Source: Sorghum bicolor (Eukaryota > Streptophyta > Magnoliopsida > Poales > Poaceae). Taken from it: a DNA stretch of 64,000 nucleotides. This document shows positions 7,481 to 64,000 of this stretch, one piece after another. The notes under the pieces are model-generated. The model did not search any database. It was not told the DNA's origin and was given only the letters and a program-made list of their open reading frames with translations. Both the position numbers and the translations under genes were made by a program. Location of the stretch: the NCBI RefSeq assembly GCF_000003195.3, contig NC_012875.2, positions 14,914,387-14,978,386 of the forward strand, read 5' to 3'. The first letter of the stretch is position 1. Each line of letters begins with the position of its first letter.

Positions 7481-7693
7481 CTGGAGATACTGGACACTCA
7501 AGCAATCACTGCCCTAAGATGCTTGAGGACGTAACTACTGGAGTAACCCCGTTGTGGAAGTAATTACTGACCTTCTGCCGGTCAAGAGAGGCGATCCAGG
7601 ACGCCCCGTCATCCCGATCTCCATCGGCATGGTGGACTTCCCAGAAGCACTCTGCGACTTTGGCTCCAGCGTCAACATTATGCCCAGGCTTGC
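7481..7693 (+). pseudogene. Zinc-knuckle and first retropepsin remnant of E2
   Basis: Positions about 7481-7530 retain the second half of the gag zinc knuckle seen complete in E5. From 7554 the frame encodes the lead-in to the protease (KRGDPGRPVIPISIGMVDF) and its active-site strand ALCDFGSSVNIMP. The host sequence stops matching its relatives at about 7688. The next five bases (CTTGC) match neither E4 nor E5, then the Tat-1 LTR begins. The catalytic loop is kept but the rest of the domain is gone. Confidence 0.7.
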
Positions 7694-8411
7694 TGTTGAC
7701 ACCGTTTTTGGGCACGTGTATAGGATGACGGGATAAGGTGGCAGTATGCTGTTTACAGGATGAGTTGCCGATGAAGACAGTTGCCGATGAAGGAGAGGTT
7801 GAATGTGACTAGGTCCGCGGGCAGTAATGTGTTTATGCCGATGGCTATAATGGGGGAGTCTGCCGATGACCATGGTAAGAAGTCTGCCGATGACCATGGT
7901 AAGGAGTCTGCCGATGATACGGAGGAGGAGTCCGGGAACTGTTGATCGGTTTATGGAAGAGTTTTAGTTCGTCACGGGAGATAATTTTGTTATTTCCTTA
8001 TTTATTTAAGTTGTTTTGTGTACGGATTCCGTGCAATTTGGAATTCGAACTCTAGTCGTGTTTAATTGTAGCTCTTTGAGTAGGGTATAAATATGAACCC
8101 TAGGGCCTTGTAATCTGGGAATCAATCAAACACACGTTTTTACTCATATTCCAGCATCTACTTTTCGACGACTTCGTCATACTTTTTTCTTTTTATTACG
8201 AGTTCTTAGGAATTCGTCGACTTAAGCTCGGCGTGTTCTCGAGTTCCGCGTGAGTACCTCTTAGCCGTGACATCCGGGCGCATCGCTGTTGTCAGGACTA
8301 AAGTATTCGAGTTATCACCTTTGCCGATAGCAAGGTCAAATCGGCTGGCACGCCTTAACGTTTGAATCGGGTATTAGCCCTTTGTGTTTGCAGATCAATT
8401 TTGCATCAACA
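7694..8411 (+). repeat. 5' LTR of Tat-1
   Basis: Starts TGTTGA and ends TCAACA, a 6-bp terminal inverted repeat. A TATAAATATG box is at about 8087. I count eight GCCGAT/ATCGGC hexamers in 718 bp, against about 0.35 expected in random sequence. The same LTR is at 19387-20104 and, reversed, at 59623-60322. Confidence 0.95.
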
Positions 8412-8414
8412 CAT

Positions 8415-8435
8415 CTTTTGGCACGCCCAGTGGGA
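8415..8435 (+). other. Probable primer-binding region of Tat-1
   Basis: TTTTGGCACGCCCAGTGGG begins 4 bp after the LTR end, where the primer site must lie. TGGCACGCCCAGTGGG would be the tRNA-complementary part. I cannot assign the tRNA from memory. Confidence 0.55.
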
Positions 8436-8457
8436 CCGATTCAAGATCAAGATCAAC

Positions 8458-10770
8458 ATGTCGATCTCTGACCTCGATCAAGAGAACGTCATCCCCGTGA
8501 CGGAGGCCAACCTCAAGGATGAGCAAAAGCAAGCTATTGCCCAAGCCATGGAAGAGTTCAAGCAGCAATGCCTGAGGTCTTTCAGCATAAACAGGAGCGG
8601 CGAAGTGGTCCAGAAAGATGCACTGCCGGCACCACGGCAGGTCACCTTTGACGCCAATCCTGGCAAGCTTCAAGATATGGTTGACAATGCCATCAATCGA
8701 GCGTTGATCAACCAAGCTGGTGTACTGTCTAATACGGTTTTCAACGCCGTGGCAAGAACTTTCAAGGAAGGACAAATCCCGCCAGATTATGTGGGGCCCT
8801 CCCATCATCAGCCAACGGCGCCAGAGGTCACGGCTCCATCGGCTACCTTGACGAATGCAAGTGCACAGTCTGCCGTCCCTCCAAGTACATTGGGGACTAC
8901 TGGTGTACTATCTGTGCCGATGGCAACCAACCCACAGATTTCAGTTGGGCAGCATAGACTGACAACAGATATGTTGGCATCGGCCATGTCAGGGTTAACT
9001 CTTCCTCCCAACTGGTGGGGTTATGGCATGCTTCCAGAGTTGACGCCGGGAACATCACAAGTAACTGGCACGAGGGGCAAAACTCCTATGACATCGGCAC
9101 CTCCCAACGCGCCAGTGAACCAGAGTCCTCGGTATACCACAACTACTACTGCAAGGCCTCACACTGGGAATCCTCAAGATTCAATGTTTCAGATGCCCAA
9201 CGCATCGGCAGAGTCAGTGTTGATGCAACAGAGGCCTATGGCCCAGTCGGGGTATGTCAATTCAACGATGGTACCCAATTATCCATCATCGGCAGCACCT
9301 ATGCCGATGAACGCTAATAATGGATGGCTTGGACAGCAAGCCTTTCCACAATCGCCCCAGCAGGGTTATCAGACTACAGGGTTCCAGCAAGGGCAGGTCT
9401 ATCCCGGGTTCCAAGGTCAGGGGATTCCCAGCCAGCCAATAAATTTTGGACAGCAACTCGGAGGACAGCCGATCGGTGGACAGCAGTTTGGTAGTCCGCA
9501 GATTGGAGGACAGGTGACCAATACAACGTTCCATGCAGGTCACGTCCCGAACAGACACGTGGAGGTTCGCCACCAAGTGCCAGATCCGCAGCCGCCTCAT
9601 CGGCAAGATGCCGATGCGTATTGGGCCGATAAGATTGCTGAAGTAATGAGGGAACAATTTGGGATAAAACCCAAAGTCAACACTTATTCTTATCGAACAC
9701 CGTATCCTCCAGCGTATGATTTGATCCCGCTTCCACATCGGTACAAGGTACCGGATTTTACAAAGTTTTCCGGACAGGACGACACGTCAACCATGGAGCA
9801 TGTCAACAGGTTCATTATTCAATGTGGAGAGGCTGGTAACAGGGACGAATTGAGGGTTCGTCTATTTTCATCATCATTGTCTGGATCGGCCTTTACTTGG
9901 TTCATATCATTACCTCCTAACTCAGTAATTACTTGGGCCGATCTAGAGAAGCAATTCCACAAATACTTCTTCTCGGGGGTTCATGAGAAGAAGATCACCG
10001 ACTTGGTCAAGTTGAGGCAACGTAATGATGAGTCGGTTGAGGGATTTGTGCAGAGGATACGGGAGGTCAAGAATAAATGCTATAGCCTGGTTCTGGATGA
10101 TCGGCAGCTAGCCGATTTAGCATTTCAGGGTTTGTTGCCACATATTAGGGACAAGTATGCCTCTCAAGAGTTCGAAAGTTTAAGTCATTTGGTGCAAAGG
10201 ATATCTGATCAAGACATCAAGCCTTTCGAGCCTAAGAGGGCATGGAATAAGAAAGTGTTATTTGTTGATGAAGCAACAAGCTCAGATTCCGATGAGGAAC
10301 CAGTAGTCGGTTTGGCAGAGTGGGTAAAAAACAAGAAGCCGATGTCTTGTCCTTTTGGGCAGAAGGAACCAGAGAAGTTTGCCTTTGACACCGCCAAGGC
10401 CGATAGGATATTTGACTTTCTACTTCAGGAAGGTCAAATCAAACTGTCCCCTAACCATGTGATCCCATCGGCAGAAGAGTTGAAGAGGATGAGATATTGC
10501 AAGTGGCATAATGCAACTTCCCATGACACCAACGAGTGCAAAGTATTCAGACAGCAGCTGCAATCGGCTATAGAATCCGGGAGAATCAAGTTTGATAGTT
10601 CCAAAGCCCAGAAGCCGATGAAGATAGACCAACATCCTTTCCCGACAAACATGTTGGATGCTAAGGGGAAGGCTAAGGTCTTAACGTCGGAGATAGCTGA
10701 GAAGAGTGCATCGGTAGATCCTCAGCATCAAGTTACTACTGCCGATGCAAGAAGTAAGGGCTTGGTCTAG
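8458..10770 (+). CDS. gag: Tat-1 gag polyprotein, main part
   Basis: The frame encodes about 770 residues from the first ATG after the primer region; the open frame runs on upstream to 8362, but that part lies across the LTR and primer site. Residues 1-100 are charged and about 100-400 are Q/P/G-rich and low-complexity. A capsid region typical of Ty3/gypsy gag spans about 430-580 (VPDFTKFSGQDD, FTWFISLPPNSVITW, FVQRIREVKNKCY, AFQGLLPHIRDKY). A CxxH-x4-H-x4-C cluster (CKWHNATSHDTNEC) lies near residue 685. Gag should form the particle that packages the element RNA. The frame ends at a TAG (10768-10770) with the same frame open beyond it, so the natural gag product probably includes the following segment. 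Confidence 0.9.
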   Translation: MSISDLDQENVIPVTEANLKDEQKQAIAQAMEEFKQQCLRSFSINRSGEVVQKDALPAPRQVTFDANPGKLQDMVDNAINRALINQAGVLSNTVFNAVARTFKEGQIPPDYVGPSHHQPTAPEVTAPSATLTNASAQSAVPPSTLGTTGVLSVPMATNPQISVGQHRLTTDMLASAMSGLTLPPNWWGYGMLPELTPGTSQVTGTRGKTPMTSAPPNAPVNQSPRYTTTTTARPHTGNPQDSMFQMPNASAESVLMQQRPMAQSGYVNSTMVPNYPSSAAPMPMNANNGWLGQQAFPQSPQQGYQTTGFQQGQVYPGFQGQGIPSQPINFGQQLGGQPIGGQQFGSPQIGGQVTNTTFHAGHVPNRHVEVRHQVPDPQPPHRQDADAYWADKIAEVMREQFGIKPKVNTYSYRTPYPPAYDLIPLPHRYKVPDFTKFSGQDDTSTMEHVNRFIIQCGEAGNRDELRVRLFSSSLSGSAFTWFISLPPNSVITWADLEKQFHKYFFSGVHEKKITDLVKLRQRNDESVEGFVQRIREVKNKCYSLVLDDRQLADLAFQGLLPHIRDKYASQEFESLSHLVQRISDQDIKPFEPKRAWNKKVLFVDEATSSDSDEEPVVGLAEWVKNKKPMSCPFGQKEPEKFAFDTAKADRIFDFLLQEGQIKLSPNHVIPSAEELKRMRYCKWHNATSHDTNECKVFRQQLQSAIESGRIKFDSSKAQKPMKIDQHPFPTNMLDAKGKAKVLTSEIAEKSASVDPQHQVTTADARSKGLV

Positions 10771-12105
10771 GAAGGAACTAGCTCAGGAAGACCTCCTCGA
10801 TCTGGTATCGTCATAACTCATAGAAGGCCTCGGAAAAATTGGCAACAATGGGAAGATCGGTATCGGCGCCAGCAGGAGGATTATCGACGGGAAGAAGAAA
10901 GACGCCGACAGGAGTGGAATCGGCACAGGGATCATTGGAATTGTCCATTCTTCATCCATTGTTGGGAGGAAAATATTAAGCTTCCTACTGTCAGAGACTG
11001 CCCTGAGTGCAATGGTTATGATCGGTACGATAGGACCGATCGGCATTATCATGATGATGAACGGCGATTTGATGGGCCGATCAGAGGAAGGGTGTCAGTT
11101 CATGACCGGCTGGGGGGCAGATTTAGTGGGCACGACAGACTTAGTTACCGTGTCCAGTATTTTCCCAGGGACCAAGAAGAGCTCGAGGAAATGGCTGATG
11201 TGCGGGTTCCCGATGAATTCATATTTTGCAGGGATGCTAACACGCATCATATGGAGTCAAGGGAGAACCGACGCCCTACGGCAAGGCAAAGACCACTTCC
11301 TCCATGGTGCCCTGGAGGATTGACCAAAACGCAGAAAAGGAGATTGCAACGTGAAAGGCAAGAGGAACTAAACAAGGGAGGGAACTCTGGAAGTCGGCAG
11401 CCGTCAGACACTAAGAGGGAAGGTCCATCGGCAGGTGTCAACATGGTCTTCATGTTGCCGATGGAGTTTCTTGCACCAGCCAGTGATGATGAGTTGGAAT
11501 TTTCTGATCAGATAGCTCAGTTGGCTCTGGATCCGATGACGGCTATCTTTGAGAAACCTGCCGATGACGAGAGGCAGCATCTTAAAGCTCTGTTCCTCAA
11601 AGGAAGGGTTGATGGGCAGCCGATGACTAAGATCCTAGTTGATGGTGGAGCTGCTATTAATATTATGCCGTATGCGGTATATCGGAAGCTTGGGAAAGGG
11701 GATCAAGATTTGACCAAGACCGATATGATGCTCAAAGACTTTGAAGGAAACGTGTCTCCAGTCAAGGGGGCGATATGTGCAGAGTTGACCATCGGCAGCA
11801 AAACCTTGCCAACAACTTTTTTCGTGATCAGCGGAAAAGGTGCCTATAATTTACTATTGGGGAGAGATTGGATTCATGCCAATTGTTGTGTCCCATCGAC
11901 AATGCATCAGTGCTTGGTTCAGTGGGTAGGTGACAAGATTGAGATCGTCCCAGGGGATTCTTCTTATGTTATCGCATCGGCAGAAGCGGATACTTATGAA
12001 AGGACTAGGTGCATTTCAGGAGAAGTTTGGGAGAAAGATTTTCTCAAAGTTGCCGATTATGAGATTCCACCGATCCAAGCAGTCGGTTCTGACGACGGTT
12101 TTTAA
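10771..12105 (+). CDS. Tat-1 gag C-terminus and protease, in frame after the TAG
   Basis: The frame stays open from the TAG at 10768 to the TAA at 12103, with no ATG needed. It first encodes an R/Q/E-rich stretch. A second cysteine cluster follows (CPFFIHCW and DCPEC, about 10940-11010). The aspartic protease (about 11560-11930) has LVDGGAAINIMP as the active-site strand and NLLLGRDWIH as the flap-side strand. DGG in place of DTG/DSG is, as I recall, usual in this lineage. The protease would cut the polyprotein. Expression requires stop readthrough, reinitiation, or a parent copy without the TAG. Confidence 0.85.
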   Translation, partial: EGTSSGRPPRSGIVITHRRPRKNWQQWEDRYRRQQEDYRREEERRRQEWNRHRDHWNCPFFIHCWEENIKLPTVRDCPECNGYDRYDRTDRHYHDDERRFDGPIRGRVSVHDRLGGRFSGHDRLSYRVQYFPRDQEELEEMADVRVPDEFIFCRDANTHHMESRENRRPTARQRPLPPWCPGGLTKTQKRRLQRERQEELNKGGNSGSRQPSDTKREGPSAGVNMVFMLPMEFLAPASDDELEFSDQIAQLALDPMTAIFEKPADDERQHLKALFLKGRVDGQPMTKILVDGGAAINIMPYAVYRKLGKGDQDLTKTDMMLKDFEGNVSPVKGAICAELTIGSKTLPTTFFVISGKGAYNLLLGRDWIHANCCVPSTMHQCLVQWVGDKIEIVPGDSSYVIASAEADTYERTRCISGEVWEKDFLKVADYEIPPIQAVGSDDGF

Positions 12106-13151
12106 TGGATAGATTCGCCGATGATGGAAAATTAGGTCAGGGATTCACATCGGCCGATGATTTGGTAGAAGTAGATATCGGTAGTGGTGATAAGCCTAGG
12201 CCTACCTTTATTAGTGCTAAATTAGATCCCGAGTGTAAGCAACAATTGACTAGTTTGTTAAAGGAATATAAAGATTGCTTTGCTTGGGATTATACCGAGA
12301 TGCCTGGTTTAGACCGATCAATTGTTGAACATCGGTTGCCCATCAAGTCTGGATTTCGGCCACATCAGCAACCAGCCCGCCGATGTAATCCTAACATTCT
12401 ACCTGATATTAAGGCCGAAATCACTAAACTTATTGAAGCTAAGTTTATTCGGCAGTGTCGGTATGCCGAATGGATTTCCAATGTCGTTCCGGTTTACAAG
12501 AAAAACGGGAAGCTTCGGGTGTGCATTGATTTCAGGAATCTCAATAAAGCTACACCGATGGATGGATACCCAATGCCTGTCGCCGATCTACTGGTTGATG
12601 CTGCAGCCGGCCATCGGGTCATCAGCTTCATGGATGGTAATGCAGGTTACAATCAAATATTCATGGCAGAGGAGGATATTCCAAAAACCGCATTCAGGTG
12701 TCCTGGTCATGTTGGGCTATTTGAATGGATAGTTATGACTTTTGGGTTAAAGAATGCTGGCGCTACTTATCAAAGGGCTATGAATTTTATATTTCATGAG
12801 TTCATCGGCAAGATCGTAGAGATTTATATTGATGATGTGGTGGTTAAGTCTGGAGATTTCTCAAAACATCTTACCGATTTACGAAAAGTGTTGGAGTGCA
12901 CAAGGAAGCATGGATTGAAGATGAATCCCAACAAGTGTGCATTTGGCGTATCGGCAGGGCAGTTTCTTGGTTTCATGGTACATCAGAGGGGTATTGAAAT
13001 TAGTCGAAGATCTATTGATGCCATCAATAAAATAGTGGCCCCTACCAATAAAACCGAGCTCCAATCCTTGATCGGCAAGGTAAATTTATCAGAAGATTTA
13101 TATCGAATTTATCTGGGAGGATTCGTGCGTTCAGTCCTCTTCTTAAATTGA
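12105..13151 (+). CDS. Tat-1 reverse transcriptase
   Basis: The frame begins at an ATG overlapping the previous TAA (TAATG at 12103-12107), one base back from the protease frame. The RT core runs from about residue 120: KKNGKLRVCIDFRNLNK, ISFMDGNAGYNQI (first catalytic Asp), MTFGLKNAGATYQ and YIDDVVVKS (paired catalytic Asp). It copies element RNA into DNA in the particle. Near 13083-13087 a T-run is one base shorter than the RT-RNase H linker requires. The frame therefore ends at 13151 in 20 wrong residues, and the sense continues in the frame of the next ORF. This copy's pol is inactivated by that frameshift. Confidence 0.9.
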   Translation: MDRFADDGKLGQGFTSADDLVEVDIGSGDKPRPTFISAKLDPECKQQLTSLLKEYKDCFAWDYTEMPGLDRSIVEHRLPIKSGFRPHQQPARRCNPNILPDIKAEITKLIEAKFIRQCRYAEWISNVVPVYKKNGKLRVCIDFRNLNKATPMDGYPMPVADLLVDAAAGHRVISFMDGNAGYNQIFMAEEDIPKTAFRCPGHVGLFEWIVMTFGLKNAGATYQRAMNFIFHEFIGKIVEIYIDDVVVKSGDFSKHLTDLRKVLECTRKHGLKMNPNKCAFGVSAGQFLGFMVHQRGIEISRRSIDAINKIVAPTNKTELQSLIGKVNLSEDLYRIYLGGFVRSVLFLN

Positions 13152-15337
13152 AAGCCGATCAAGAATTTATTTGGGGAGAAGAACAGCAGTTGGCTCTGGA
13201 TGAAATCAAGAAATATCTAGTAAATCCTCCAGTTCTAGTTCCACCTCAACAAGGGAAGCCCTTCAGATTGTATTTATCTACCGATGGATCGGTTATCGGT
13301 TCAGCTTTAGTTCAAGAATTTGAAGGGAAAGAGAGGGTAATTTATTATTTGAGTAGGAGGTTGATTGATGCTGAAACCAGGTATTCGGCCATTGAGAAAC
13401 TGTGCTTATGCTTATATTTTTCATGCGTCAAGTTGAGACATTACCTGTTATCGGCCGAATGCGCTGTTGTTTGCAAAGATGACGTGGTTCGATACATGTT
13501 GTCTATGCCGATTATGAGTGGTAGGATCGGTAAATGGATTTTAGCGCTGTCGGAGTTCGATTTGCGTTACGAATCGGCTAAGGCAGTCAAAGGGCAGATT
13601 ATGGCCGATTTTGTGACTCAACATTGCGGTCCAGTGGAAACCTTGGAAATTGTGCCCTGGACGTTCTTCTTTGATGGGTCTACCTGTGACCGGGGGGCAG
13701 GAATCGGCATTGTATTGGTTTCCCCTAAGGGGAGGAAGTATGAGTTTTCCTTGCCGATTGTTGCCACTTCAACAAATAATCAGGCTGAGTATCAAGCTCT
13801 GATCAAGGGATTGGAGTTGTTAAGAGAAGTTCGTGCTGATGCTGTTGAAATATTCGGGGATTCTATGTTGGTTATAAATCAATTGGCCGGAAGATATGAA
13901 TGCCGAAGTGAAGCTCTCATGACTTATTTCGAGAGAAGTATGCAACTTTTAAAGGAATTCAAGGATTTCCGATTGGAGCATGTTCCCCGATTACATAATG
14001 AAGACGCTAATCGGTTAGCTCAGCATGCTTCGGGATACCAGCCAACGATTAATGCGACATCGGCAGTCGGTGCCGGTGATTGGAGGAAAGAAATTATTGA
14101 TTATCTAAAAGATCCATCCAAAAAAGTTGAAAGACGGGTTCGATTTCAAGCAACCAAGTATGTGCTCCTTGAAAATGAATTGTATTATCGAACTATTGAC
14201 GGAATTCTTCTCCGATGCTTGGGTGACGATGAAGCTAGAAGTTTGATGGGGGAAATCCATGAAGGAGTGTGTGGAGCGCATCAGTCGGCTTTTAAGATGA
14301 AGTGGATGATTCGGAGGAATGGATATTTTTGGCCGACCATACTCGAGGATTGCTTTAAGTATTTCAAAGGATGTCAAGGTTGTCAAAAGTTTGGAAACAT
14401 TCAAAGAGCACCCGCATCGGCTATGAATCCCATCATAAAGCCTTGGCCGTTCCGGGGATGGGCTATCGATCTGATCGGCCAGATTTATCCACCATCTAGC
14501 AAAGGGCATAAGTTTATTCTAGTTGCCACTGATTATTTCACTAAGTGGGTTGAAGCCATTCCTCTGAAAAAAGTCACATCGGCCAATATGATTGATTTTG
14601 TAAAGGAGCATATTATTTACCGATTTGGGATCCCTCAAACGATTACTACCGATCAGGGCACTATGTTCACGTCGGGGGAGTTCGATGAATTCGCAATCGG
14701 TATGGGAATTAAAGTGTTGAATTCTTCTCCTTACTATGCTCAAGCCAATGGGCAGGCCGAAGCGTCTAACAAAGGAATTATCAAGCTTATTAAACGAAAG
14801 ATTGAAGAAAATCCTAGGCGGTGGCATACGTTATTAAATGAAGCATTGTGGTCTTATCGGATGGCTTGTCATGGATCAACCAAGGTGTCACCTTATCAAT
14901 TGGTGTATGGACATGATGCGGTGTTGCCTTGGGAAATTAAGGCTGGATCTAGGCGATTATCTTTTCAAGACCAATTAACTACCGATGATTATGCCACTTT
15001 GATGACCGATGAATTAGATGATCTAGCAGGGCATCGGTTAAAGGCTTTAATGAGTATAGAGGAAAATAAGAGGAGAGTTGCTAGATGGTATGATAAGAAA
15101 GTAAAGACTAAGGAGTTTGCCGATGGGGATTTAGTATGGAAGTTGATTTTGCCAGTCGGGACTAAAAGTTCGAAGTTTGGGAAGTGGTCTCCTAATTGGG
15201 AAGGTCCTTATCGGATAAGACACTCGGCTCCTGGTAATGCCTATATTCTAGAAACTCTCGAAGGAGTTGAATTTCCCAGAGCATTAAATGGCAAATATTT
15301 AAAGAAGTACTACCCCAGCATATGGGTCGATGCATGA
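13148..15337 (+). CDS. Tat-1 RNase H, archaeal-type RNase H and integrase
   Basis: Coding sense resumes at about 13090; the listed start is the first start codon. The first region is the Ty3/gypsy RNase H (LYLSTDGSVIGSAL, YYLSRRLIDAE, residues about 30-170). The second is an archaeal-type RNase H (FFFDGSTCDRGAGIG, NNQAEYQAL, FGDSMLVINQL, HNEDANRLAQ, about 175-300) with the expected acidic residues. Integrase follows: an HHCC finger (HEGVCGAH, CQGCQ), then the D,D,E core (AIDLIG, TTDQGT, QAEASNK) and a C-terminal domain without a chromodomain. It ends at TGA 15335-15337. Reading is open throughout, so the only pol lesion found is at the RT junction. Confidence 0.92.
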   Translation: MKADQEFIWGEEQQLALDEIKKYLVNPPVLVPPQQGKPFRLYLSTDGSVIGSALVQEFEGKERVIYYLSRRLIDAETRYSAIEKLCLCLYFSCVKLRHYLLSAECAVVCKDDVVRYMLSMPIMSGRIGKWILALSEFDLRYESAKAVKGQIMADFVTQHCGPVETLEIVPWTFFFDGSTCDRGAGIGIVLVSPKGRKYEFSLPIVATSTNNQAEYQALIKGLELLREVRADAVEIFGDSMLVINQLAGRYECRSEALMTYFERSMQLLKEFKDFRLEHVPRLHNEDANRLAQHASGYQPTINATSAVGAGDWRKEIIDYLKDPSKKVERRVRFQATKYVLLENELYYRTIDGILLRCLGDDEARSLMGEIHEGVCGAHQSAFKMKWMIRRNGYFWPTILEDCFKYFKGCQGCQKFGNIQRAPASAMNPIIKPWPFRGWAIDLIGQIYPPSSKGHKFILVATDYFTKWVEAIPLKKVTSANMIDFVKEHIIYRFGIPQTITTDQGTMFTSGEFDEFAIGMGIKVLNSSPYYAQANGQAEASNKGIIKLIKRKIEENPRRWHTLLNEALWSYRMACHGSTKVSPYQLVYGHDAVLPWEIKAGSRRLSFQDQLTTDDYATLMTDELDDLAGHRLKALMSIEENKRRVARWYDKKVKTKEFADGDLVWKLILPVGTKSSKFGKWSPNWEGPYRIRHSAPGNAYILETLEGVEFPRALNGKYLKKYYPSIWVDA

Positions 15338-15482: not shown

Positions 15483-16178
15483 TCAGACGTTCAGCAACGC
15501 TTGGATTGTCGATATGGCGCGCAGCCGGATCTGATTGGCTGTCTCTATCTCGTTGATATCATCATCGGCAGAACCTTCTATCGGCTTCAGCTTCCTCTTC
15601 AACTGCAGCGCTTTGCGACCATGGACGTTTCGTTCTTGTTCAAGGTGCTTGATGGTCTCCGGCAGTTGACTCTCTTCTTGCTGGGCCTGGGACAGAGCAT
15701 CCTCTACTTGCTTGAGTTCGACCAGCAAAGCTTCTCTTTTTGCCGATAGATCGGACACTTTCTGCTTCAGTGCATCACCTGAGGACTTTAAGGTGCCGAT
15801 GTTCTTATGTTTCTCATCGGCTAAGAGTTTTTCTTTCATCATCTCCTCAGAAAGCTGGATTTGAGCGGTTCTATCGGCAAGGCGTCGAGTGGCTCTCTGG
15901 TACTGTAGCTGGCGGCTTTCTAGGTGTGCAGCGTGGAAGAGGGTTTCTTCAGCATCGGCAGGAATTTGGCCTCTGAGGGTTTTGAACAGAGCCTTGGCTG
16001 GGTCAGAATCGTTGACCAGTTGAGCTGTGTCTTGATGAAGTATAGCCGATAGCTCCTCCAGCTTAGCCTTGGTTTCTGCCGATACAGTCCCAATTGCCCG
16101 AGAGGAGCTTGCTTCCTCACCCTCTTCTTCGAAGATATCAATGGCGAAGGAGAATAAGCTATCGGGAGAATCTTGTTC
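15483..16178 (-). CDS. Exon 6 of the antisense gene: C-terminal coiled coil
   Basis: 231 codons plus TGA, opened by an AG acceptor (TTTTTAG) and fully open. After an acidic patch (FEEEGEEASS) come long Q/E/K/L-rich helices, including LKSSGDALKQKVSDLSAKR and LKQVEDALSQAQQEESQLP, which look like a parallel coiled coil for self-association. The same exon is open to the window end in Tat-2 and survives as a fragment at 25537-25926, where many differences are conservative. The first half is seen only if the splice site is used, because an unspliced frame covers it differently. Confidence 0.82.
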   Translation of the reverse strand, partial: EQDSPDSLFSFAIDIFEEEGEEASSSRAIGTVSAETKAKLEELSAILHQDTAQLVNDSDPAKALFKTLRGQIPADAEETLFHAAHLESRQLQYQRATRRLADRTAQIQLSEEMMKEKLLADEKHKNIGTLKSSGDALKQKVSDLSAKREALLVELKQVEDALSQAQQEESQLPETIKHLEQERNVHGRKALQLKRKLKPIEGSADDDINEIETANQIRLRAISTIQALLNV

Positions 16179-17146
16179 CTAAAAATGAGAATGAAATAAG
16201 TCATTTTTATGGTCAAAGCTTCGGCAGATGATATTGGTGGAAAAGTTGGATGACTTACTTGTTTCAAGGCAATTTCTTGCCTTTGACTCAAAGATATCGA
16301 TGGAGCCACAGGTTGATCGGCAAATGTTGCCGATGGAACGACATCGACTGAAAGAAGACAGGAAGAGTTATGAGACTAAATGAAAATGGGTTTATCGGCG
16401 GAAGTATTGTTGAAATATGTTACCCGGAGGAGAAACGACAGTTGTCTGAATCGGGGAAACCGCCGATGATATAACTGGGCCTGCCGGGCCAGTTGTTTGT
16501 TCACCTACGTCAGCTGATGTACCTTCTGTTTGAGGTTCTTCCTGCTGGGGTTCTTCCATCTGTGGTGCTCCCTGCATTGGTTGGGGAGATGGTGCTTGCT
16601 GTGTCTGGACTTCTGGAGAAGAAGGGGAAGATTCCACCGGGATCGGAGACACCGGAGGAGGAGGAGGAGTTGCCACTTTCTGGCGCTTTGTTCCAGCCTT
16701 AGCACTTTGGGTGCCCTTCCTCTTTGGCTGGCTAGATTTGGAGGCATCGGTGCCTTGGCGTTTGGCTTTTGTCGATGCACCAGTTTGCTGCAACGACAAA
16801 AAGGGGTTTATGAGCGCAGATAGTCGATACAAAGATAGTCAGCATAAATGAAAAGGGTTTAGCAAATTACCTTAAAAGCTTGCGCCAGAGTGGAAGCAGC
16901 TACCGTTGGCGATGTCTGAGGTTTTCTGGTGGTAACTTTCTTGAGGCGCGCACCCCGATGCACGATGGAAGCCAGAGTGGGAGCATTGTGGCCGATTGAG
17001 GAGATCGGACCTGATGGGAACAGGTCGATCGGTTTGCCACTCCTGCTAACCGATGGAGGGGTGTTGTCGACCTACAAAAGGAATACAGGGATAAGTTACC
17101 GATGGAAATAGTATTAGAAAATGAGACATCAGTTTAAAATACTTAC

Positions 17147-18603
17147 AGTGTCATCAGGGACTTCGTATTTGGGGTCGATCATGCCGCGGTATGAGAGGAC
17201 CGATCTGCAGAATAGACTCTCTTTCCATTCTGCCCACCATAGCTTGTATGCCTGAGTGATAAAGGCAGCTGGAACCCATTCTGACAGATCTACATCTGTA
17301 TCGGCATTTGATGGTAGCTGGGCTACTCGAATCCACTCGAGAAGGTTGGTGATGGGTTCTCTGGGCTTTATCACATCGGCATAAGGAAGTGCAATCGGCA
17401 ACTGGCCGAAAGCTAGTTGACGAGCTAATGCCGATGGATTGTAAAATTCATAGGTTTGGGGAGAGGTTTTTGTGCTACCAAAGAAATTCACTGGTATGGC
17501 CCTGGGAGTCACAATTGCCATCATCACCTCATTATCCCTATCGAGAGCTTCATCAAATGGATTGAAGGTTAGAGGGAGCATGCTGTCTGGGTCATCATAG
17601 GCCAACCATGGTCGTTCATCTCTGGCCAATCCCTCATACAAAGTCTCGAAGAATCGGCCGATCTGATCCGGATTGTTCCCTGAACCGGGTAAGACTATAA
17701 CGGCTTCGCCAAAGTTTAAGGGGGCACGCGTTGCCGATTCTTCTTCACCCAACACATGATTTTCAGCTATATCTCTTGGGAAGTGCTGTGAGAACAAGTT
17801 GAAATCAAGGCGCTTATGCAGGTGCAGATTGAGCCACATATTAATGAACCACCAGGGGCCTCCCAAGTTGCCGATGGATTGGCCAAGCAGGAGTTTCTGG
17901 GCTACCTGATGAAGAAGGTGGTAAACTGCGCTGAGCAAATATCGGCCGAGGGGAAATTGGCCACCGCTAGCCAGTCTTTCTGCTGCCGACAGATAGACAG
18001 AAGTTGGTCCTGCCGATCGACCACAGAATACGAACTTGTCCAGCCACATGTTCAGAAAGGTGGTTTGCTCTTTTATGGTGACAGGCCCTTTCCCGCGGTA
18101 CTTCTGAATGTACCCTGACCAACCGCCGATAGCGCGAGTCTCCACTTTGGCACTGGGGCAGTATCAAAAAAGTGGGTGCTATCGGCGGAAGATATGTCTA
18201 GTCCAGTGAGCATGGCTACATCGGCAAGGGTAGGAGAAGCAGGGCCGTGGCCAAAAACAAAAGCATTGAGGGTATCTGACCAAAAATAAGACGCAGCTAT
18301 CAACAGCGACTCGTTCTTGTGCATATCGGCAATGGATAGCCTGATGCATTGGGCTAGCTTCCTTTCACCCCACTGGACTTCATTCGAATTACTGACTCTT
18401 AAGAACCAGTCTTTCCACCCTACAGTAGGGCTGGGCCAAGAGCGAAAGGTGTCTTTCCACAGATCTAAAGAGAAGTTTTCGGCCCTAAAAGGAATCCTGT
18501 TGGTTTCTGCATTAATAAGGTCGGTTGGATCTGGATTCCCTAGAGGGCCGAGGCACTGAAGGTGTGGTTGATCGGTAGGAATGACAATTTTGTTGGACAA
18601 CTC
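17147..18603 (-). pseudogene. Exon 2 of the antisense gene: plant mobile domain-like region
   Basis: Encodes about 486 residues when the frameshift near 18155 is allowed for; Tat-2 has one more base there. Blocks typical of plant-mobile-domain proteins are present: ADVAMLTGLDIS, KEQTTFLNMWLDKFVFCGRS, PLGRYLLSAVYHLLHQVAQ and GGPWWFINMWLNLHLHKR. The second half is less typical, with FGSTKTSPQTYEFYNPSALA and LWWAEWKESLF. This is a family resemblance from memory, not a search result. The exon is bounded by CACTAG (acceptor) and GTAAGT (donor). Compared with Tat-2, silent changes greatly outnumber replacements. Confidence 0.8.
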
Positions 18604-18895
18604 CTAGTGTTTTGGGGAATAAAATACAAAGAAAAAGGGAAAAGGAAGATATTCAGTAAAATGAATCGCAGATGAACAGGAATGCGAGAAAAGGTACAGG
18701 AGATGAGATGGAAATCTGACCTCAGGGACAACGAAGCCAATGGCCATCTTGTCGTGAAGAGGACGTTGGAGGGCACCGGAGTCGATGAAGAGGAATGCTT
18801 GTCGAAGATCTTGAGGGTTGTAAATGGCGCCGCCGCTGGAAAAGCAAAGTTGGACGGTAGAATGGTGTAATGGGGGAGGAGTACCCAAGAAGGAA

Positions 18896-18904
18896 CTATT
18901 TATA
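18896..18904 (-). promoter_or_regulatory. TATA box of the Tat-1 antisense gene
   Basis: TATAAATAG on the minus strand, about 150 bp upstream of the exon 1 ATG. The identical motif is at 60807-60815 in Tat-2, preceded by the same TTGTCC. The gene therefore appears to have its own promoter facing away from the 3' LTR. Confidence 0.75.
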
Positions 18905-19369: not shown

Positions 19370-19386
19370 CGAAACTGGGGGGCATG
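19370..19386 (+). other. Polypurine tract of Tat-1
   Basis: The G-rich tract AACTGGGGGGCATG lies immediately before the 3' LTR. It is the expected primer for plus-strand DNA synthesis. The same tract, reversed, is at 60323-60338 in Tat-2. Confidence 0.75.
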
Positions 19387-20104
19387 TGTTGACACCGTTT
19401 TTGGGCACGTGTATAGGATGACGGGATAAGGTGGCAGTATGCTGTTTACAGGATGAGTTGCCGATGAGGACAGTTGCCGATGAAGGAGAGGTTGAATGTG
19501 ACTAGGTCCGCGGGCAGTAATGTGTTTATGCCGATGGCTATAATGGGGGAGTTTGCCGATGACCATGGTAAGAAGTCTGCCGATGACCATGGTAAGGAGT
19601 CTGCCGATGATACGGAGGAGGAGTCCGGGAACTGTTGATCGGTTTATGGAAGAGTTTTAGTTCGTCACGGGAGATAATTTTGTTATTTCCTTATTTATTT
19701 AAGTTGTTTTGTGTACGGATTCCGTGCAATTTGGAATTCGAACTCTAGTCGTGTTTAATTGTAGCTCTTTGAGTAGGGTATAAATATGAACCCTAGGGCC
19801 TTGTAATCTGGGAATCAATCAAACACACGTTTTTACTCATATTCCAGCATCTACTTTTCGACGACTTCGTCATACTTTTTTCTTTTTATTACGAGTTCTT
19901 AGGAATTCGTCGACTTAAGCTCGGCGTGTTCTCGAGTTCCGCGTGAGTACCTCTTAGCCGTGACATCCGGGCGCATCGCTGTTGTCAGGACTAAAGTATT
20001 CGAGTTATCATCTTTGCCGATAGCAAGGTCAAATCGGCTGGCACGCCTTAACGTTTGAATCGGGTATTAGCCCTTTGTGTTTGCAGATCAATTTTGCATC
20101 AACA
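19387..20104 (+). repeat. 3' LTR of Tat-1
   Basis: 718 bp, with about three differences from 7694-8411 (A/G in the second motif copy, C/T before GCCGATGACC, C/T before TTTGCCGATAG). Ends TCAACA, followed by E2 sequence that matches 53229 onward of E4. Confidence 0.95.
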
Positions 20105-20614
20105 ACTATGCAATAAATGTCTTGTAAGTATGTATTAGCTGTCTCCCACCTATGAGCTCCAGATATCAAAACCTTATTAGAGTAGGGCGAGAGAGAAGGC
20201 AATGCCACTATGCTTCATACTACAAATACCACATACTTTGAGAGAAGGCATACACCTCTACTGCCTTGGTAAGGATCCAGAAATACCACAAAAGAGAGAC
20301 TAGAGAGAGTCATACAAGGAATCTCTGAGTTTTATTTGAAAATCTGCAAAAACTTCAGAGCTATAGTTAATCGAAGAACAAGAGACATGGTGCTTGACTA
20401 GACTGTTCTATCTTTTAACTACTCAAGACAGAAGTGAAGGTTACAAGTCCCATGGTGAAAGGTAAATGAGTAAGTTTTAAGTCTTAACAGTTTACTCTAA
20501 CTAGAGATGAGATCTTGTTTAAACACATGTGTATCTTTAAGTTATGAAACCACTGCAGAAACTCTTGAGTTCATCTTTGCTCAGGGACGAGCAAAGGTTA
20601 AGCTTGGGGGAGCT
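20105..20614 (+). other. E2 3' untranslated region and polypurine tract
   Basis: Non-coding. It aligns with 1747-2268 of E1 and 53229-53749 of E4. It ends in GGTTAAGCTTGGGGGAGCT directly before the LTR, the expected polypurine tract. The upstream part present in E4 is missing here because of the Tat-1 associated deletion. Confidence 0.75.
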
Positions 20615-24302: not shown

Positions 24303-25536
24303 ACCGATGTAGCCTTCACCCGGGAGTATTCCAGAGTATCGATTTTCCACAGAGAACGTGAGTGTACTAATTAAGATCCAAGATCGCCCAAGGATAACTA
24401 TATAATTATTTTTGGTGGGAAGAGAGGAAGTTTCCTGAGAGTTCTCTAGTTGATCTAAGAACCAAGAATTACTTCAAAGATTATTTATATCGGGACATCA
24501 GAGCACTAACCACAGAAAGAGATGAGAAGGGGGCTAGGAAGGTCTGACTACGGTCCTACAATCACCGATCCGAAAGAGGTGGAATACGTCGACCGTTAGG
24601 GCTGTCACTACCCTAAGGCTATCACAACAATCCACAGGATTGGGTACAATTCCAGGTAATTGCAAGACTAAACACCACGTCTAATCTATTAATTACTACT
24701 CTAGCGTTATAAAGACTAGAGCACTTGATGCAAGAGGGAATCCAATAAATAACTTGAATGTAAATAAAAGTAATTAAAGAACTCAGGAATTATGAATTGA
24801 AGAACCTGAAGAACGATGAAGAACGAACCAGTTGCTGCAAAAGTACAATGTTGAGGAAGATCCAACAGATCCGGCTCCTCCTTCGCTCTCCTCTTCTCTC
24901 TCCCTATTTTCTAGATTACAACTAGAGCTAACTAGAACTAGAACTAGAGGAACTAGAACTAGAACAAGATGAACTAGAACTAGATCTAGATGAACTAGAG
25001 GTAGAACTAGAAGAACTAGAGGGATCCTCTCTACTTGGATGAAGAATTGAAACCCTAACTTTGATTTTGTAGAAGAGGTATGATCTCCAGGGGCCAGAGG
25101 GCCTTGCTTATATAGTCTTTTCAGATGAATCTGGGCTGTCGGATCAAACCAACATTAATCGCACGGTTTTCCTTGGTCCCTTAGGTCGGTGGAGCACGAT
25201 CCGCGAAGTTGAAGCTGATTGGTTACTGTAGCTGGGCGGGCACCCAAGGGGGGAGGGCGGGCGCCCTGCCCTCGGGCCCGATCGGCCTCCCGTTCGTTCC
25301 CGTGGCTTCTGGAGTCTTCTAGATGGTAGAAAATTGCGCGGCACGTTAATATCTCTATGTAAACTCGACGTGTGGGCCTTTCTTTCATATTTCCTGATAA
25401 CCCCCTGTAGAAATAGACAAACACCAAAACTCGTGGAATTCTGTCAGATAAAACCCTAAGTCTAGGTGTTGGCTGCATATAAGTCCTTTTCCATGATTAG
25501 TTGACGGTTAAATGTGAGCATTAAGGACCGTCAACA
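24256..25536 (-). repeat. 5' LTR of E0
   Basis: 1281 bp on the minus strand, from TGTTGACGGTCC (complement of 25536 leftward) to CCCAACA at 24256. It contains the paired GGCGCCC-type boxes (about 25231-25262) and the CTAG-rich array (about 24920-25020). A second short copy of its end is present because of the 77-bp duplication. Confidence 0.88.
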
Positions 25537-25926
25537 AGGGCCTTGATCATTTAGGGCAGTTGGCTTTCTTCTTGTTCAGCTTGAGACAAAGCCTCCTCCA
25601 CTTGTTTGAGCTCAGCCAGCAGGGTCTCCCTTCTTGCCGATAGGTCAGAAATCTTCTGTTTTAGTGTCTCCCTTGAGGACTGTAGAATGCCGATGCTCTT
25701 ATGTTTCTCATCGGCAAGGCGCTTCACTTGCATTACCTCCTCTAAAAGTTGGGCATGAGTGACTCTATCAGCAAGACGCTAGGTAGCCTTTTGGTATTGG
25801 AGCTGACGGCTCTCCAAGTGTGCAGCTTGAAAAGAATCTATTCAGCATCGGCTGGGATTTGGCCGCGAAGAGTCTTGAACAGGGCTTTGGCTGGATCGGA
25901 ATCGTCGACCAATTGAGCAGTGTCTT
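25537..25926 (-). pseudogene. Fragment of a third Tat antisense gene (coiled-coil exon)
   Basis: The minus strand encodes LADEKHKSIGILQSS and LKQVEEALSQAEQEESQLP, matching exon 6 of the Tat-1 antisense gene (15660-16025 region). Frames break near 25750-25800. It carries four GCCGAT/ATCGGC hexamers in 390 bp, as expected for the family. It is the target into which E0 inserted. At about 25926 it switches abruptly to unrelated sequence. Confidence 0.75.
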
Positions 25927-25928
25927 TG

Positions 25929-59622: not shown

Positions 59623-60322
59623 TGTTGATGCAAAACAGATCTGCAAACACAAAGGGCTAATACCCGATTCAAACGTTAAGGCGTGCCAGCCGATTTGACC
59701 TTACTATCGGCAAAGGTGATAACTCGAATACTTTAGTCCTGACAACAGCGATGCGACCGGATGTCACGGCTAAGAGGTACTCACGCGGAACTTGAGAACA
59801 CGCCGAGCTTAAGTCGACGAATTCCTAAGAACTCGTAATAAAAGGGAAAAAGTATGACGAAGTCGTCGAAAAGTAGATGCTGAAATATGAGTAAAAACGT
59901 GTGTTTGATTGATTGATAGATATCTCATTACAAGGCCCTAGGGTCTATATTTATACCCTACTCAAAGAGCTACAACCAGAAACGATTAGATTTCGAATTC
60001 CAAACTACACGGAATCCGTATACAAAACGATGTAAATAATTAAGGAAATAACAAAACTATCCCCCGTGACAAACTGAAACTCCCTCACACAACGACCGGC
60101 AGCTCCCGGACTCCCTCTTTGCATCATCGGCAGACCCTTTGCCATAGTCATCGGCAGACTTTCTTATCCAGCCATCGGCACAGTCATATCACTGCCTGTA
60201 GACTTAGTCACGTTCAACTTCTCCTTCATCGGCAACCATCCTTATCGGCAACTCACCTTGTAAACATCGTACTGCCACCTCATCCTGCCATCCTAGACAC
60301 GTGCCCAAAAACGGTGTCAACA
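59623..60322 (-). repeat. 3' LTR of Tat-2
   Basis: 700 bp, TGTTGATGC at 59623 and GTGTCAACA at 60322. The TATA box reads ATTTATACCC at about 59949. The polypurine tract follows (CATGCCCCCCAGTTTCGG). Confidence 0.92.
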
Positions 60323-60511
60323 CATGCCCCCCAGTTTCGGAGTATAAAACTATTAATGCTCCAAAATTCTCTGCAGTAATGATGCCTTCTCCCGCAATTA
60401 ATGCTCCTAATCTGGTAACCGACAACCTCAATCTGAACAACTCTGATCCTATTCCTCCGCAGATTCCTCGAAATCCCCAACTTCCTAAACGGGCATTTCT
60501 TCTCAACCGTA

Positions 60512-60806: not shown

Positions 60807-60815
60807 TATAAATAG
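60807..60815 (+). promoter_or_regulatory. TATA box of the Tat-2 antisense gene
   Basis: TATAAATAG, about 150 bp before the exon 1 ATG, as in Tat-1. Confidence 0.75.
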
Positions 60816-60963: not shown

Positions 60964-63900
60964 ATGGCCGTCGGCTTCGTCGTCCCTGAGGTCAAATCTC
61001 CACCCCGTCTCCTGTATTTTTCCTTCATATCCCTGTTCATTCGCAATTCATTTTACTGAATATCTCCCTTTTCTTTCCTCTTTGTATTTCTTTTTATTCC
61101 CAAAAATCACTAGGAATTGTCCAATAAAATTGTCATCCCCACTGATCAACCACACCTCCAATGTCTCGGTCCTCTAGGAGATCCAGATCCAACCGAACTC
61201 ATTAACGCAGAAACCAACAGGATCCCCTTCAGAACTGAAAATTTTTTGTTAGATTTGTGGAAAGATACCTTCCTCTCTTGGCCTAGCCCTACCGTAGGGT
61301 GGAAAGACTGGTTCTTGAGAGTCAGCAATTCTTATGAAGTTCAGTGGGGCGAAAGGAAACTAGCCCAATGCATTAGGTTGTCTATCGCCGATATGCATAG
61401 GAATGAGTCACTGCTGATAGCTGCATCCTACTTTTGGTCAGACACCCTTAATGCTTTTGCCTTTGGCCACGGCCCTGCTTCTCCTACCCTTGCCGATGTA
61501 GCCATGCTTACTGGTCTAGACATATCTTCTGTCGATAGCACCCATTTTTTTGATACTGCCCCTAGTGCCAAGGTGGAGACTCGCGCTATAGGCGGTTGGT
61601 CAGGGTACATCCAGAAGTACCGTGGGAAAGGATCTGTTACCATAAAGGAACAAACCACCTTTCTGAACATGTGGCTGGACAAGTTTGTATTCAGGGGTCG
61701 ATCGGCAGGGCCGACTTCCGTCTATCTATCGGCAGCAGAAAGACTGGCTAACGGAGGCCAATTTCCTCTCGGCCGATACTTGCTTGGCGCTGTTTACCAT
61801 CTTCTCCATCAGGTAGCCCAGAAACTCCTGCTTGGCCAGTCCATCGGCAACTTGGGAGGCCCCTGGTGGTTTATTAATATGTGGCTCAATCTGCACCTGC
61901 ATAAGCGCCTTGATTTCAACTTGTTCACACAGCACTACCCAAGAGATATAGCCGAAAACCATGTGTTGGGTGAAGAGGAATCGGCAACGCGTGCCCCCTT
62001 GAACTTTGGTGAAGCTGTCATCGTTCTACCTGGTTCAGGGGGTAATCCGGATCAGATCGGCCGATTCTTCCAGACTCTGTATGAGGGTTTGGCCAGAGAC
62101 GAACGACCATGATTAGCTTATGCTGACCCAGATAGCATGCTCCCTCTGACCTTCAATCCATTTGATGAAGCTCTCGACAGAGACAATGAGGCGATGATGG
62201 CAATTGTGACTCCCAGAATCATTCCAGTGAATTTCTTTGGTAGCACAAAAACCTCTCCTCAGACTTATGAATTTTATAACCCATCGGCATTAGCTCGCCA
62301 GTTAGCTTTCGGCCAGTTGCCGTTTGCACTTCCTTATGCCGATGTGATAAAACCCAGAGAAACCATCAACAACCTTCTTGAGTGGATTCGAGTGGCCCAA
62401 CTACCACCAAACGCCGATACAGATGTAGATCTGTCGGAATGGGTTCCGGCTGCTTTTATCACTCAGGCATACAAGTTATGGTGGGCAGAGTGGAAAGAGC
62501 ATCTATTCTGCAGATCGGCCCTTTCATACCGTGGCATGATCGACTCCGAATACGAAGTTCCCGATGACACTGTAAGTATCTTATACCGATGCTCTATTTT
62601 TTCAATATTACTTCCATCGGTAGCTTACCCTTATGTTCCTTTTGCAGGTTGACAACATCCCTCCATCGGTTAGCAGGAGTGGCAAGCCGATTGACTTGTT
62701 TCCATCAGGCCCGATTTCCTCCATCGGCCACAATGCTCCCACCCTGGCTTCCATCGTGCATCGGGGTGTGCGTCTCAGGAAAGTCACCACCAGGAGAACC
62801 CAGACATCACCAACGGTAGCTGCTCCCACTCTGGCGCGGGCTTTCAAGGCAATTTGTTAAATCTTTTCCTTTATGCTGACTATCTTTATATCGGCTATAT
62901 TTATGCTTATAAACTCTTGTTCGTTATTGCAGCAAACCGGCGTATCGGCGAAAGCCAGGCGTGAAAGTGCAAATGCCCCCCAGTCTAGCCAACCAAAGAG
63001 AAAGGGCACCACAGGTGCTAAGACTGGAACAAAGCGCCAAAAGGTAGCAACTCCCCCTCCTCCTCCGGTGTCTCCAATTCCGGTGGAGTCTTCTCCATCT
63101 TCTCCAGAAGCCCAGCCACAACAAGCACCATCTCCCCCACCTATGCAGGAAGCACCACAGATAGAAGAACCCCAGCAGGAAGGACCTCAAACAGAAGATA
63201 CATCAGCTGATATGGGTGAACAAACAACTGGCCCGGTGGGTCCAGTTATACCATCGGCAGTTCTCCCGATTCAGACAACCGTTGTTCCTCCTCCAGGTAA
63301 CATACTTTAACAATATCGCTACCGATGAACTTATTCTCATTTAGTCTCATAACTCCTCTTGTCTTCTTTCAGTTGATATCGTTCCATCGGCAACTTCAAC
63401 CGATCAACCTATAGTTCCATCGGCATCTTTGGCCGATCAGCCTGCAGCTCCATCAGCACTTCTCAGTCAAAGACAAGAGATCGCCTTGAAGCAAGTAAGT
63501 CACCATTTACCGTTAGCATTATTTGCCGATTCTCTGAATATGAGCTAACTTTGCTTTCCCTCCCAGGAACAAGATTCTCCCCATAGCCTGTTCTCCTTCG
63601 CCATCGATCTCTCTGAAGAAGAAGGTGAAGAAGCAAGCTCCTCTCAGACGGTCAGCATTACATCGGCAGAGATCAGGGTCAGGCTGGAAGAATTGTCAGC
63701 TCTCCTTCACCAGGACACAGCGCAATTGGTTGATGACTCCGACCCTACCAAGACCCTGTTCAGAGCTCTCAGAGGCCAAATCCCAACCGATGTCGAAGAA
63801 ATCCTGTTCCAAGCCGCTCATCTGGAGAGTCGCCAGCTGCAGTACCAAAGAGCTTCTCGGCGTCTTGCCGATAGAGCCGCTCAGACTCAACTCTCTGATG

Positions 63901-64000
63901 AAATGAGGAAAGAGAAGCTCTTGACCGATGAGAAGCACAAGAACATCGGTATCCTGAGATCTTCTGGAGACGCGCTGAAGCAGAAGATATCCGATCTATC
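60964..64000 (+). pseudogene. Antisense gene of Tat-2: PMD-like/coiled-coil protein, six exons, 3' end outside window
   Basis: Exons 60964-60990, 61114-62571, 62648-62848, 62933-63296, 63373-63494 and 63567 to beyond 64000. Introns are GT-AG except intron 3, whose donor is GC (GT in Tat-1). Lengths of exons 1-4 equal those of Tat-1 (after the Tat-1 missing base); exon 5 is 33 nt longer. Exon 1 gives MAVGFVVPE. Exon 2 holds the plant-mobile-domain-like region (ADVAMLTGLDIS, FLNMWLDKFVF). Exon 4 is basic then proline-rich (KRKGTTGAKTGTKRQKV, PPPPPVSPIPVESS). Exon 6 is coiled coil. The only lesion seen is TGA at 62110-62112 where Tat-1 has TGG. Tat-1 is broken elsewhere, so their common ancestor was probably intact. 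Confidence 0.85.

Follow-up and report, generated by a model that had tools for sequence, protein, structure and literature searches.

Within a 64,000-nucleotide stretch of Sorghum bicolor DNA (contig NC_012875.2, positions 14,914,387 to 14,978,386; hereafter the window) lie two copies, A and B, of a Tat-type Ty3/gypsy retrotransposon with long terminal repeats (LTRs). Each carries a gene antisense to gag-pol, placed between pol and the 3′ LTR. A six-exon gene had been proposed for both copies, and alignment of A with B bears this out, the exons being collinear. We consider it very likely that this is a conserved, spliced gene for an accessory protein of an abundant family of such elements, a judgement that concerns the gene and not its role. 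Antisense genes are themselves known from Tat elements; this one has five introns and a plant mobile domain.

The predicted features of the gene are as follows, in window positions (nt, nucleotides).

18897-18904, minus strand: TATAAATA, candidate promoter (TATA box) of copy A, 157 nt upstream of the ATG
18721-18747, minus strand: copy A exon 1, nine codons, with the ATG
18604-18720, minus strand: copy A intron 1, 117 nt, the site of most length variation
17147-18603, minus strand: copy A exon 2, plant mobile domain, with one frameshift near 18155
17072-17146, minus strand: copy A intron 2, 75 nt, found in diverged relatives too
16871-17071, minus strand: copy A exon 3, placed by alignment and the third-position test
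16788-16870, minus strand: copy A intron 3, 83 nt, with a GT donor
16424-16787, minus strand: copy A exon 4, proline-rich linker
16348-16423, minus strand: copy A intron 4, 76 nt
16259-16347, minus strand: copy A exon 5, placed by alignment
16179-16258, minus strand: copy A intron 5, 80 nt, GTAAGT...TAG
15483-16178, minus strand: copy A exon 6, charged, coiled-coil-like C-terminus (reading by eye), stop at 15483
60807-60814, plus strand: TATAAATA of copy B, upstream of the ATG at 60964
60964-64000, plus strand: copy B antisense gene, exons 60964-60990, 61114-62571, 62648-62848, 62933-63296, 63373-63494 and 63567 to beyond the window

In open copies the six exons measure 27, 1458, 201, 364, 89 and 696 nt, as given by the alignment of A and B. 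The 2835 nt in frame of the original prediction therefore hold for open copies but not for copy A itself, which has one base less in exon 2 and sums to 2834 nt. All five donors of copy A are GT and all five acceptors AG. The layout is common to A and B, although their splice sites do not match throughout: intron 3 of B (62849-62932) starts with a GC donor, and exon 5 of B is 33 nt longer while staying in frame. Intron lengths range from 72 to 123 nt across the two copies, and in copy A introns are richer in T than exons (41.5% versus 22.4%). Exon 6 of copy B can be completed from the adjoining genome stretch (L039), where 231 codons are open and end in a stop.

The genome searched comprises 709 Mb in 846 contigs. 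Searches with the genes of A and B gave 4669 and 4566 first-look candidates, respectively, and 40 places were scored in each case; among the matches listed, each gene has at least 40 places at 94-100% identity. We aligned 31 copies, namely 29 near copies, A (L009) and B, the last being the sole member of its subfamily that was read. Loss of exon collinearity or of the splice sites in homologous elements had been set beforehand as grounds for rejecting the gene. The exon-intron layout is kept in all 31 copies, and 309 of the 310 splice sites are a GT or GC donor or an AG acceptor, the exception being the intron 2 donor of L021. The 28 GC donors all belong to intron 3, where they are the family norm (28 of 31 copies), with GT in A, L010 and L032. 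Length changes are concentrated outside the exons: among the 30 A-like copies, gap columns number 2 in exons, 28 in intron 1 and 3 in introns 2-5. A further 34 insertion columns in exons are ascribed to the longer exon 5 of B (33) and to L012 (one). Fifteen of the 29 near copies have an open spliced frame of 945 codons, 12 have one or two stops and two (L012 and L036) have frameshifts. The TATA box that the original prediction gave the gene recurs as TATAAATA, 157 nt before the ATG, in 29 of the 31 copies (exceptions, L023 and L034).

The pattern of substitutions between diverged copies indicates that the spliced frame is under purifying selection at the codon level, about as strict as that on pol. 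L010, a sibling of copy A and 100% identical to it in the genome search, differs from B at 68, 46 and 231 first, second and third codon positions, with a ratio of nonsynonymous to synonymous substitution rates (dN/dS) of 0.113; the synonymous divergence (dS) between the A-like and B lineages is 0.52. By exon, dN/dS is 0.07 in exon 2, 0.08 in the part of exon 6 within the window, 0.14 in exon 3, 0.27 in exon 4 and 0.37 in exon 5, and the introns of the pair are 23% different. A second pair, L010 and L038, gives 0.146 overall; exon 6 stands at 0.24 and exon 5, where changes are few, at 0.62. The genomic phase in which substitutions accumulate is 2, 2, 2, 1, 2 and 1 for exons 1-6, as the splice model predicts, and introns have no consistent phase. 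The excess at third positions is significant within exon 2 (p=2.6e-25), exon 6 (p=3.9e-10), exon 3 (p=0.0017) and exon 4 (p=0.00097). One of 20 positions in the splice dinucleotides is changed, as are 3 of the 25 next positions of the splice motifs, compared with 94 of 376 other intron positions.

Among the near copies, for which mean pairwise statistics are descriptive because of shared ancestry, the ratio of nonsynonymous to synonymous differences (pN/pS) is 0.187 over the 29 copies; the final 457 codons of pol in these copies give 0.178. Read in the two shifted frames, the same alignment gives 1.12 and 1.41, and in the three opposite-strand frames 0.90, 0.24 and 1.59. Those opposite-strand frames contain 32, 28 and 38 stops in L013, the one copy tested. 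When the alignment was segmented blindly, by substitution phase alone, 84% of positions agreed with the splice model, and exons 4 and 6 were recovered as blocks of shifted phase. Collinear exons, conserved splice sites and codon-level selection in the phase of the model together argue for a spliced protein gene, rather than for a chance pattern or a function of the RNA only.

The plant mobile domain family (PF10536) is recognized in the 944-residue product of an open copy with 56 bits over profile positions 4-189 of 347, the curated cut-off being 34.9; this was one of the checks suggested with the original prediction. The longer part of copy B exon 2 scores 55.9 bits, and the two frameshifted parts of copy A exon 2 fall just under the cut-off, at 29.3 and 34.3 bits. 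In the linker encoded by exon 4, the product of L013 has a basic stretch resembling a nuclear localization signal (NLS).

Relatives occur in other grasses. A first protein search found at least 4 and a profile search at least 28, with 7996 candidates scored in each; named relatives come from Miscanthus, Oryza minuta, Saccharum, Panicum miliaceum and Urochloa, and P0009, which shares 93% identity, possibly belongs to Sorghum bicolor itself or a near species. Viral contigs were also scanned, and no relative was confirmed there. Relatives outside S. bicolor were compared as proteins or open reading frames (ORFs), and evidence for introns in them comes from reading the proteins. Two of them, P0001 from Miscanthus and P0004 from Oryza, align over both the plant mobile domain and the C-terminal region, in the same layout as the Sorghum gene. 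In P0004 a short piece precedes the match to exon 2, as a short exon 1 would give.

For twenty of the 28 relatives the sequence is an unspliced ORF extending as far as the end of exon 2 (read by eye, the most distant without alignment); left out of this number were P0001-P0004 and P0015, which run past or skip that end, and P0008, P0022 and P0027, which fall short of it or are without it. At the junction 18 of the 20 have valine (V), and 14 have V followed by serine (S), as an intron starting with GTNAGN gives in this phase. The evidential weight lies in what follows: past the junction these ORFs do not continue with the sequence of exon 3 and generally reach a stop soon afterwards. In P0019 and P0025 the frame crosses inserts of 26 and 25 codons, respectively, before resuming in exon 3. 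P0005 ends just past the junction, whereas P0001, 95% identical to it, goes straight into exon 3, as if intron 2 had been removed there. As judged from these translated frames, intron 2 is also present in the diverged relatives. A separate observation concerns P0002, an annotated Miscanthus protein that ends in matches to the integrase core and SH3_retrovirus; its gene model perhaps runs into another inserted element.

The breadth of this distribution bears on whether a fragment of a host gene might have been captured once and then carried passively by a few copies, as happens by transduction in Mutator-like elements (MULEs) and some retrotransposons. Plant mobile domains do exist in host genes, and the introns suggest entry as DNA or unspliced RNA. 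A passive fragment is hard to reconcile with an exon set common to B and the 30 A-like copies, lineages apart by the synonymous divergence given above, with the many places that each gene occupies in the genome, with purifying selection or with relatives elsewhere, and of the explanations weighed here we hold it to be the least probable by a small step, with very little chance of being right.

Retrotransposons are expected to lose introns when they are copied through RNA. The unspliced boundary of exon 5 and intron 5, searched as a 32-base pattern with up to three mismatches, is found at 506 genomic places (240 and 266 on the two strands), a count of A-like copies, B having eight mismatches to the pattern. 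No genome match was found for the spliced junction of exons 5 and 6 by the pattern search, which the corresponding junction of B would fit within three mismatches by our own comparison, or for that of exons 2 and 3 as an exact degenerate pattern; these are the two of the five junctions that were searched. The persistence of the introns can be understood from orientation, since reverse transcription copies a genomic RNA that holds the complement of the introns, without those splice sites, and each new copy would inherit them in this form. The introns are kept in all 31 copies and in two subfamilies (the second being B alone), with intron 2 in diverged relatives as well, and the antisense orientation is evidently the reason. 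The original prediction had gone further, holding that introns can survive only when antisense. Orientation stands as the likely reason, but "only" does not, as Ogre elements retain a sense-strand intron that is spliced in part (PMC6317226; this and the other papers cited by PMC number are drawn on here from excerpts). An intron-bearing gene cannot derive from mature mRNA unless its introns were gained afterwards; the gene would rather have entered the element as intron-bearing DNA or unspliced RNA.

A number of points weigh against reading the locus as a spliced protein gene. The gene is known here from sequence alone, with transcription, splicing and protein all predicted. Exon 5 (p=0.09) and exon 1 (3 substitutions) are too short for proof from a single exon, and the blind segmentation merges exons 2 and 3 with intron 2 and leaves exons 1 and 5 and introns 1 and 2 unresolved. 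One opposite-strand frame also has a low pN/pS, the value of 0.24, as is expected of the frame in which third positions line up with those of the coding frame. Copy counts are not independent, since near copies share recent ancestry, and a GC-AG intron 3 may splice less well. Among the relatives, P0007 (isoleucine-serine) and P0011 (arginine-serine) lack the junction V, which by itself is weak evidence because exon 3 also begins with V in S. bicolor and Miscanthus. An AlphaFold model of the exon 2 homologue P0005, built with 24 sequences, is poor, with a predicted local distance difference test (pLDDT) score of 52. A regulatory or anti-silencing role is suggested by the name of the domain and by analogy with host paralogues. 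Finally, each copy in the window is broken by a single lesion in exon 2, as had been noted at the outset: the frameshift near 18155 in A and a stop near 62110 in B.

Broken copies would suit an antisense transcript that acts as RNA only, for example by pairing with the genomic RNA into a double strand, in which case the pattern of exons would be a relic, and regulation by double-stranded RNA has been raised for such genes (PMC7264820). An RNA of this kind predicts neither codon constraint like that of pol, nor phase shifts at the junctions, nor open frames in 15 of 29 near copies, and we regard it as highly improbable. For a spliced protein gene, the predicted course of events is that host RNA polymerase II would start near the TATA box inside the element and that the host spliceosome would remove the five introns. 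The resulting 944-residue protein would carry the plant mobile domain from exon 2, the linker with the NLS-like stretch from exon 4 and the coiled-coil-like C-terminus from exon 6, and may enter the nucleus and act there as a regulator.

The role itself is less certain. Instead of regulating expression or silencing, the protein may be an antisense-coded helper in replication or integration, for instance by importing the integration complex into the nucleus, a proposal that concerns role only and is compatible with the gene being real. Conservation about as strict as that of pol would suit a helper, as would the basic stretch and the nuclear location of the antisense protein of Grande (PMC7264820). 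Against it, the open copy's product has no Pfam domain besides the plant mobile domain up to E 0.1, and many LTR elements manage without such a protein. On balance we find a helper function unlikely, while giving it appreciable weight. We are considerably more doubtful of a further conjecture, in which the introns are kept because spliced transcripts escape the silencing of intronless repeat RNA and because, once spliced, the antisense mRNA has five fewer stretches that could pair with the genomic RNA, and in which the protein, with its plant mobile domain and coiled coil, counters a host silencing complex containing plant mobile domains. If this were true, the element would possess an anti-silencing gene whose own expression is licensed by its introns, and antisense coding would be what allows a retrotransposon to retain them. 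In the host, the protein MAIN interacts with MAIL1, and both act to silence transposable elements (PMC7156037); they too have a plant mobile domain but are host genes of the PMD-C clade, not transposon-borne.

Antisense genes at the same place have been published for RIRE2, Grande and Retand (PMC7264820, PMC11963269), in agreement with the statement of the original prediction that antisense ORFs are known in Tat elements such as Grande. These aORF-3R genes (RIRE2, gene23 of maize Grande and Silene Retand) share place and antisense orientation with the Sorghum gene, and their function is unknown according to the sources. The antisense gene of Grande has its own promoter and is transcribed (PMC7264820); here the evidence for a promoter is the sequence TATAAATA in the 29 copies that have it. 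A 2025 survey found antisense ORFs in all recently active Retand clusters and Transposase_28 (PF04195) in 97% of clusters (PMC11963269). The Sorghum gene differs in having a plant mobile domain and five introns, and PF04195 was unmatched up to E 0.1 in exons 2 (two parts), 3, 4 and 6 of copy A, in two parts of exon 2 of copy B and in the open copy's product. Thus, of the features of the Retand clade, the antisense coding region between pol and the 3′ LTR is present, and Transposase_28 is not found.

Plant mobile domains (PMDs) are carried by Ty3/gypsy elements across angiosperms, as the PMD-A group (Ikeda et al. 2017, PMC5418596), and are reported in gypsy elements elsewhere (PMC9289625, PMC6317226). 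For PMD-A proteins, a gypsy host element is the one point of agreement established with the Sorghum gene. The domain occurs in 57% of Ogre elements (PMC6317226), which thus have the same Pfam family in a Tat-lineage element with the second RNase H at the same position. DUF1409 appears in LTR-element consensuses of seven Oryza species (PMC9289625); it is matched in the Oryza relative P0004 and unmatched up to E 0.1 in the open copy's product. Surveys of extra ORFs have considered uninterrupted ORFs of at least 250 codons (PMC6317226), or of at least 600 bp, or shorter with Transposase_28 (PMC11963269). Filters of this kind would break the gene up and return chiefly its large exon; the gene models and lists of domains given for Tat elements may therefore have gaps. 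PMC7264820 itself calls for spliced and antisense transcripts to be examined. The word "intron" is absent from the main text of PMC11963269, and we found no account of introns in antisense Tat genes in the literature, although Steinbauerova 2011 and Gomez-Orte 2013 might mention them. The original prediction, which knew of no described multi-exon version with a plant mobile domain and coiled coil, overstates the novelty somewhat: antisense ORFs, gypsy-borne plant mobile domains and related annotated proteins were already on record.

An antisense gene that is spliced and lies by the 3′ LTR also exists in human T-cell leukaemia virus type 1 (HTLV-1), namely HBZ, which is unlike the Sorghum gene in its unrelated protein, its promoter in the 3′ LTR and its fewer exons. 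Its product is nuclear (PMC11963269).

The remaining features of the host element in the window are listed below.

7694-8411, plus strand: 5′ LTR of copy A, a Tat-type Ty3/gypsy element, with TGTTG...CAACA ends
8359-10770, 10771-12105, 12093-13151 and 13052-15337, plus strand: gag-pol of copy A, four open stretches, from the ORF list
19387-20104, plus strand: 3′ LTR of copy A, from the LTR pair alignment
59623-60328 (alignment extent), minus strand: LTR of copy B adjoining the 5′ end of the antisense gene, 85.6% identical to the LTR of A

Two of the four gag-pol stretches of copy A were scanned for domain families. The frame 8359-10767 matches Retrotrans_gag, and the frame 13052-15334 matches RT_RNaseH_2 at residues 41-136, RVT_3 (the second RNase H) at 207-326 and rve (integrase) at 466-562. 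A second RNase H between RNase H and integrase is a criterion for the Tat lineage, that is, the Ogre/Retand group (PMC6317226). By its gag match and its order of double RNase H and integrase, copy A is assigned to this lineage. Its LTRs flank gag-pol, and about 4.05 kb separates the end of pol from the 3′ LTR, as the lineage leads one to expect. Copy B is a minus-strand element cut by the end of the window.

The LTR pair of copy A is 99.3% identical over a 725-base alignment (7687-8411 versus 19381-20104), yet its five-base flanks, CTTGC (7689-7693) and ACTAT (20105-20109), differ and thus form no target-site duplication. Each flank has a counterpart elsewhere in the window, near 50888 and near 53240, about 2.35 kb from each other and perhaps within one repeat, which together with the mismatch beside such similar LTRs hints at recombination or deletion.

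Elsewhere in the genome, five of eight further loci with plant mobile domains were compared with the antisense gene (L005, L007 and L008 lay outside the comparison). L001, L003, L004 and L006 match it weakly, with best E values of 1e-12 to 2e-4 and 23-46% identity, and L002 does not match. Two more candidates were dropped because they had no tblastn match to the gene. L041 (G000:C6:8926700-8931700) is a repeated family with a 469-residue plant mobile domain frame, which, read by eye, follows the end of a MULE-like transposase. L040 (G000:C10:2949000-2953500), also a repeated family, has a domain divided into three collinear pieces, which are spaced by about 70-80 nt in a manner suggestive of introns. 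Within the window, a broken piece of exon 6 of the antisense gene (residues ~762-892) lies at 25536-25927 on the minus strand, at the edge of another repeat, and is possibly a captured fragment.

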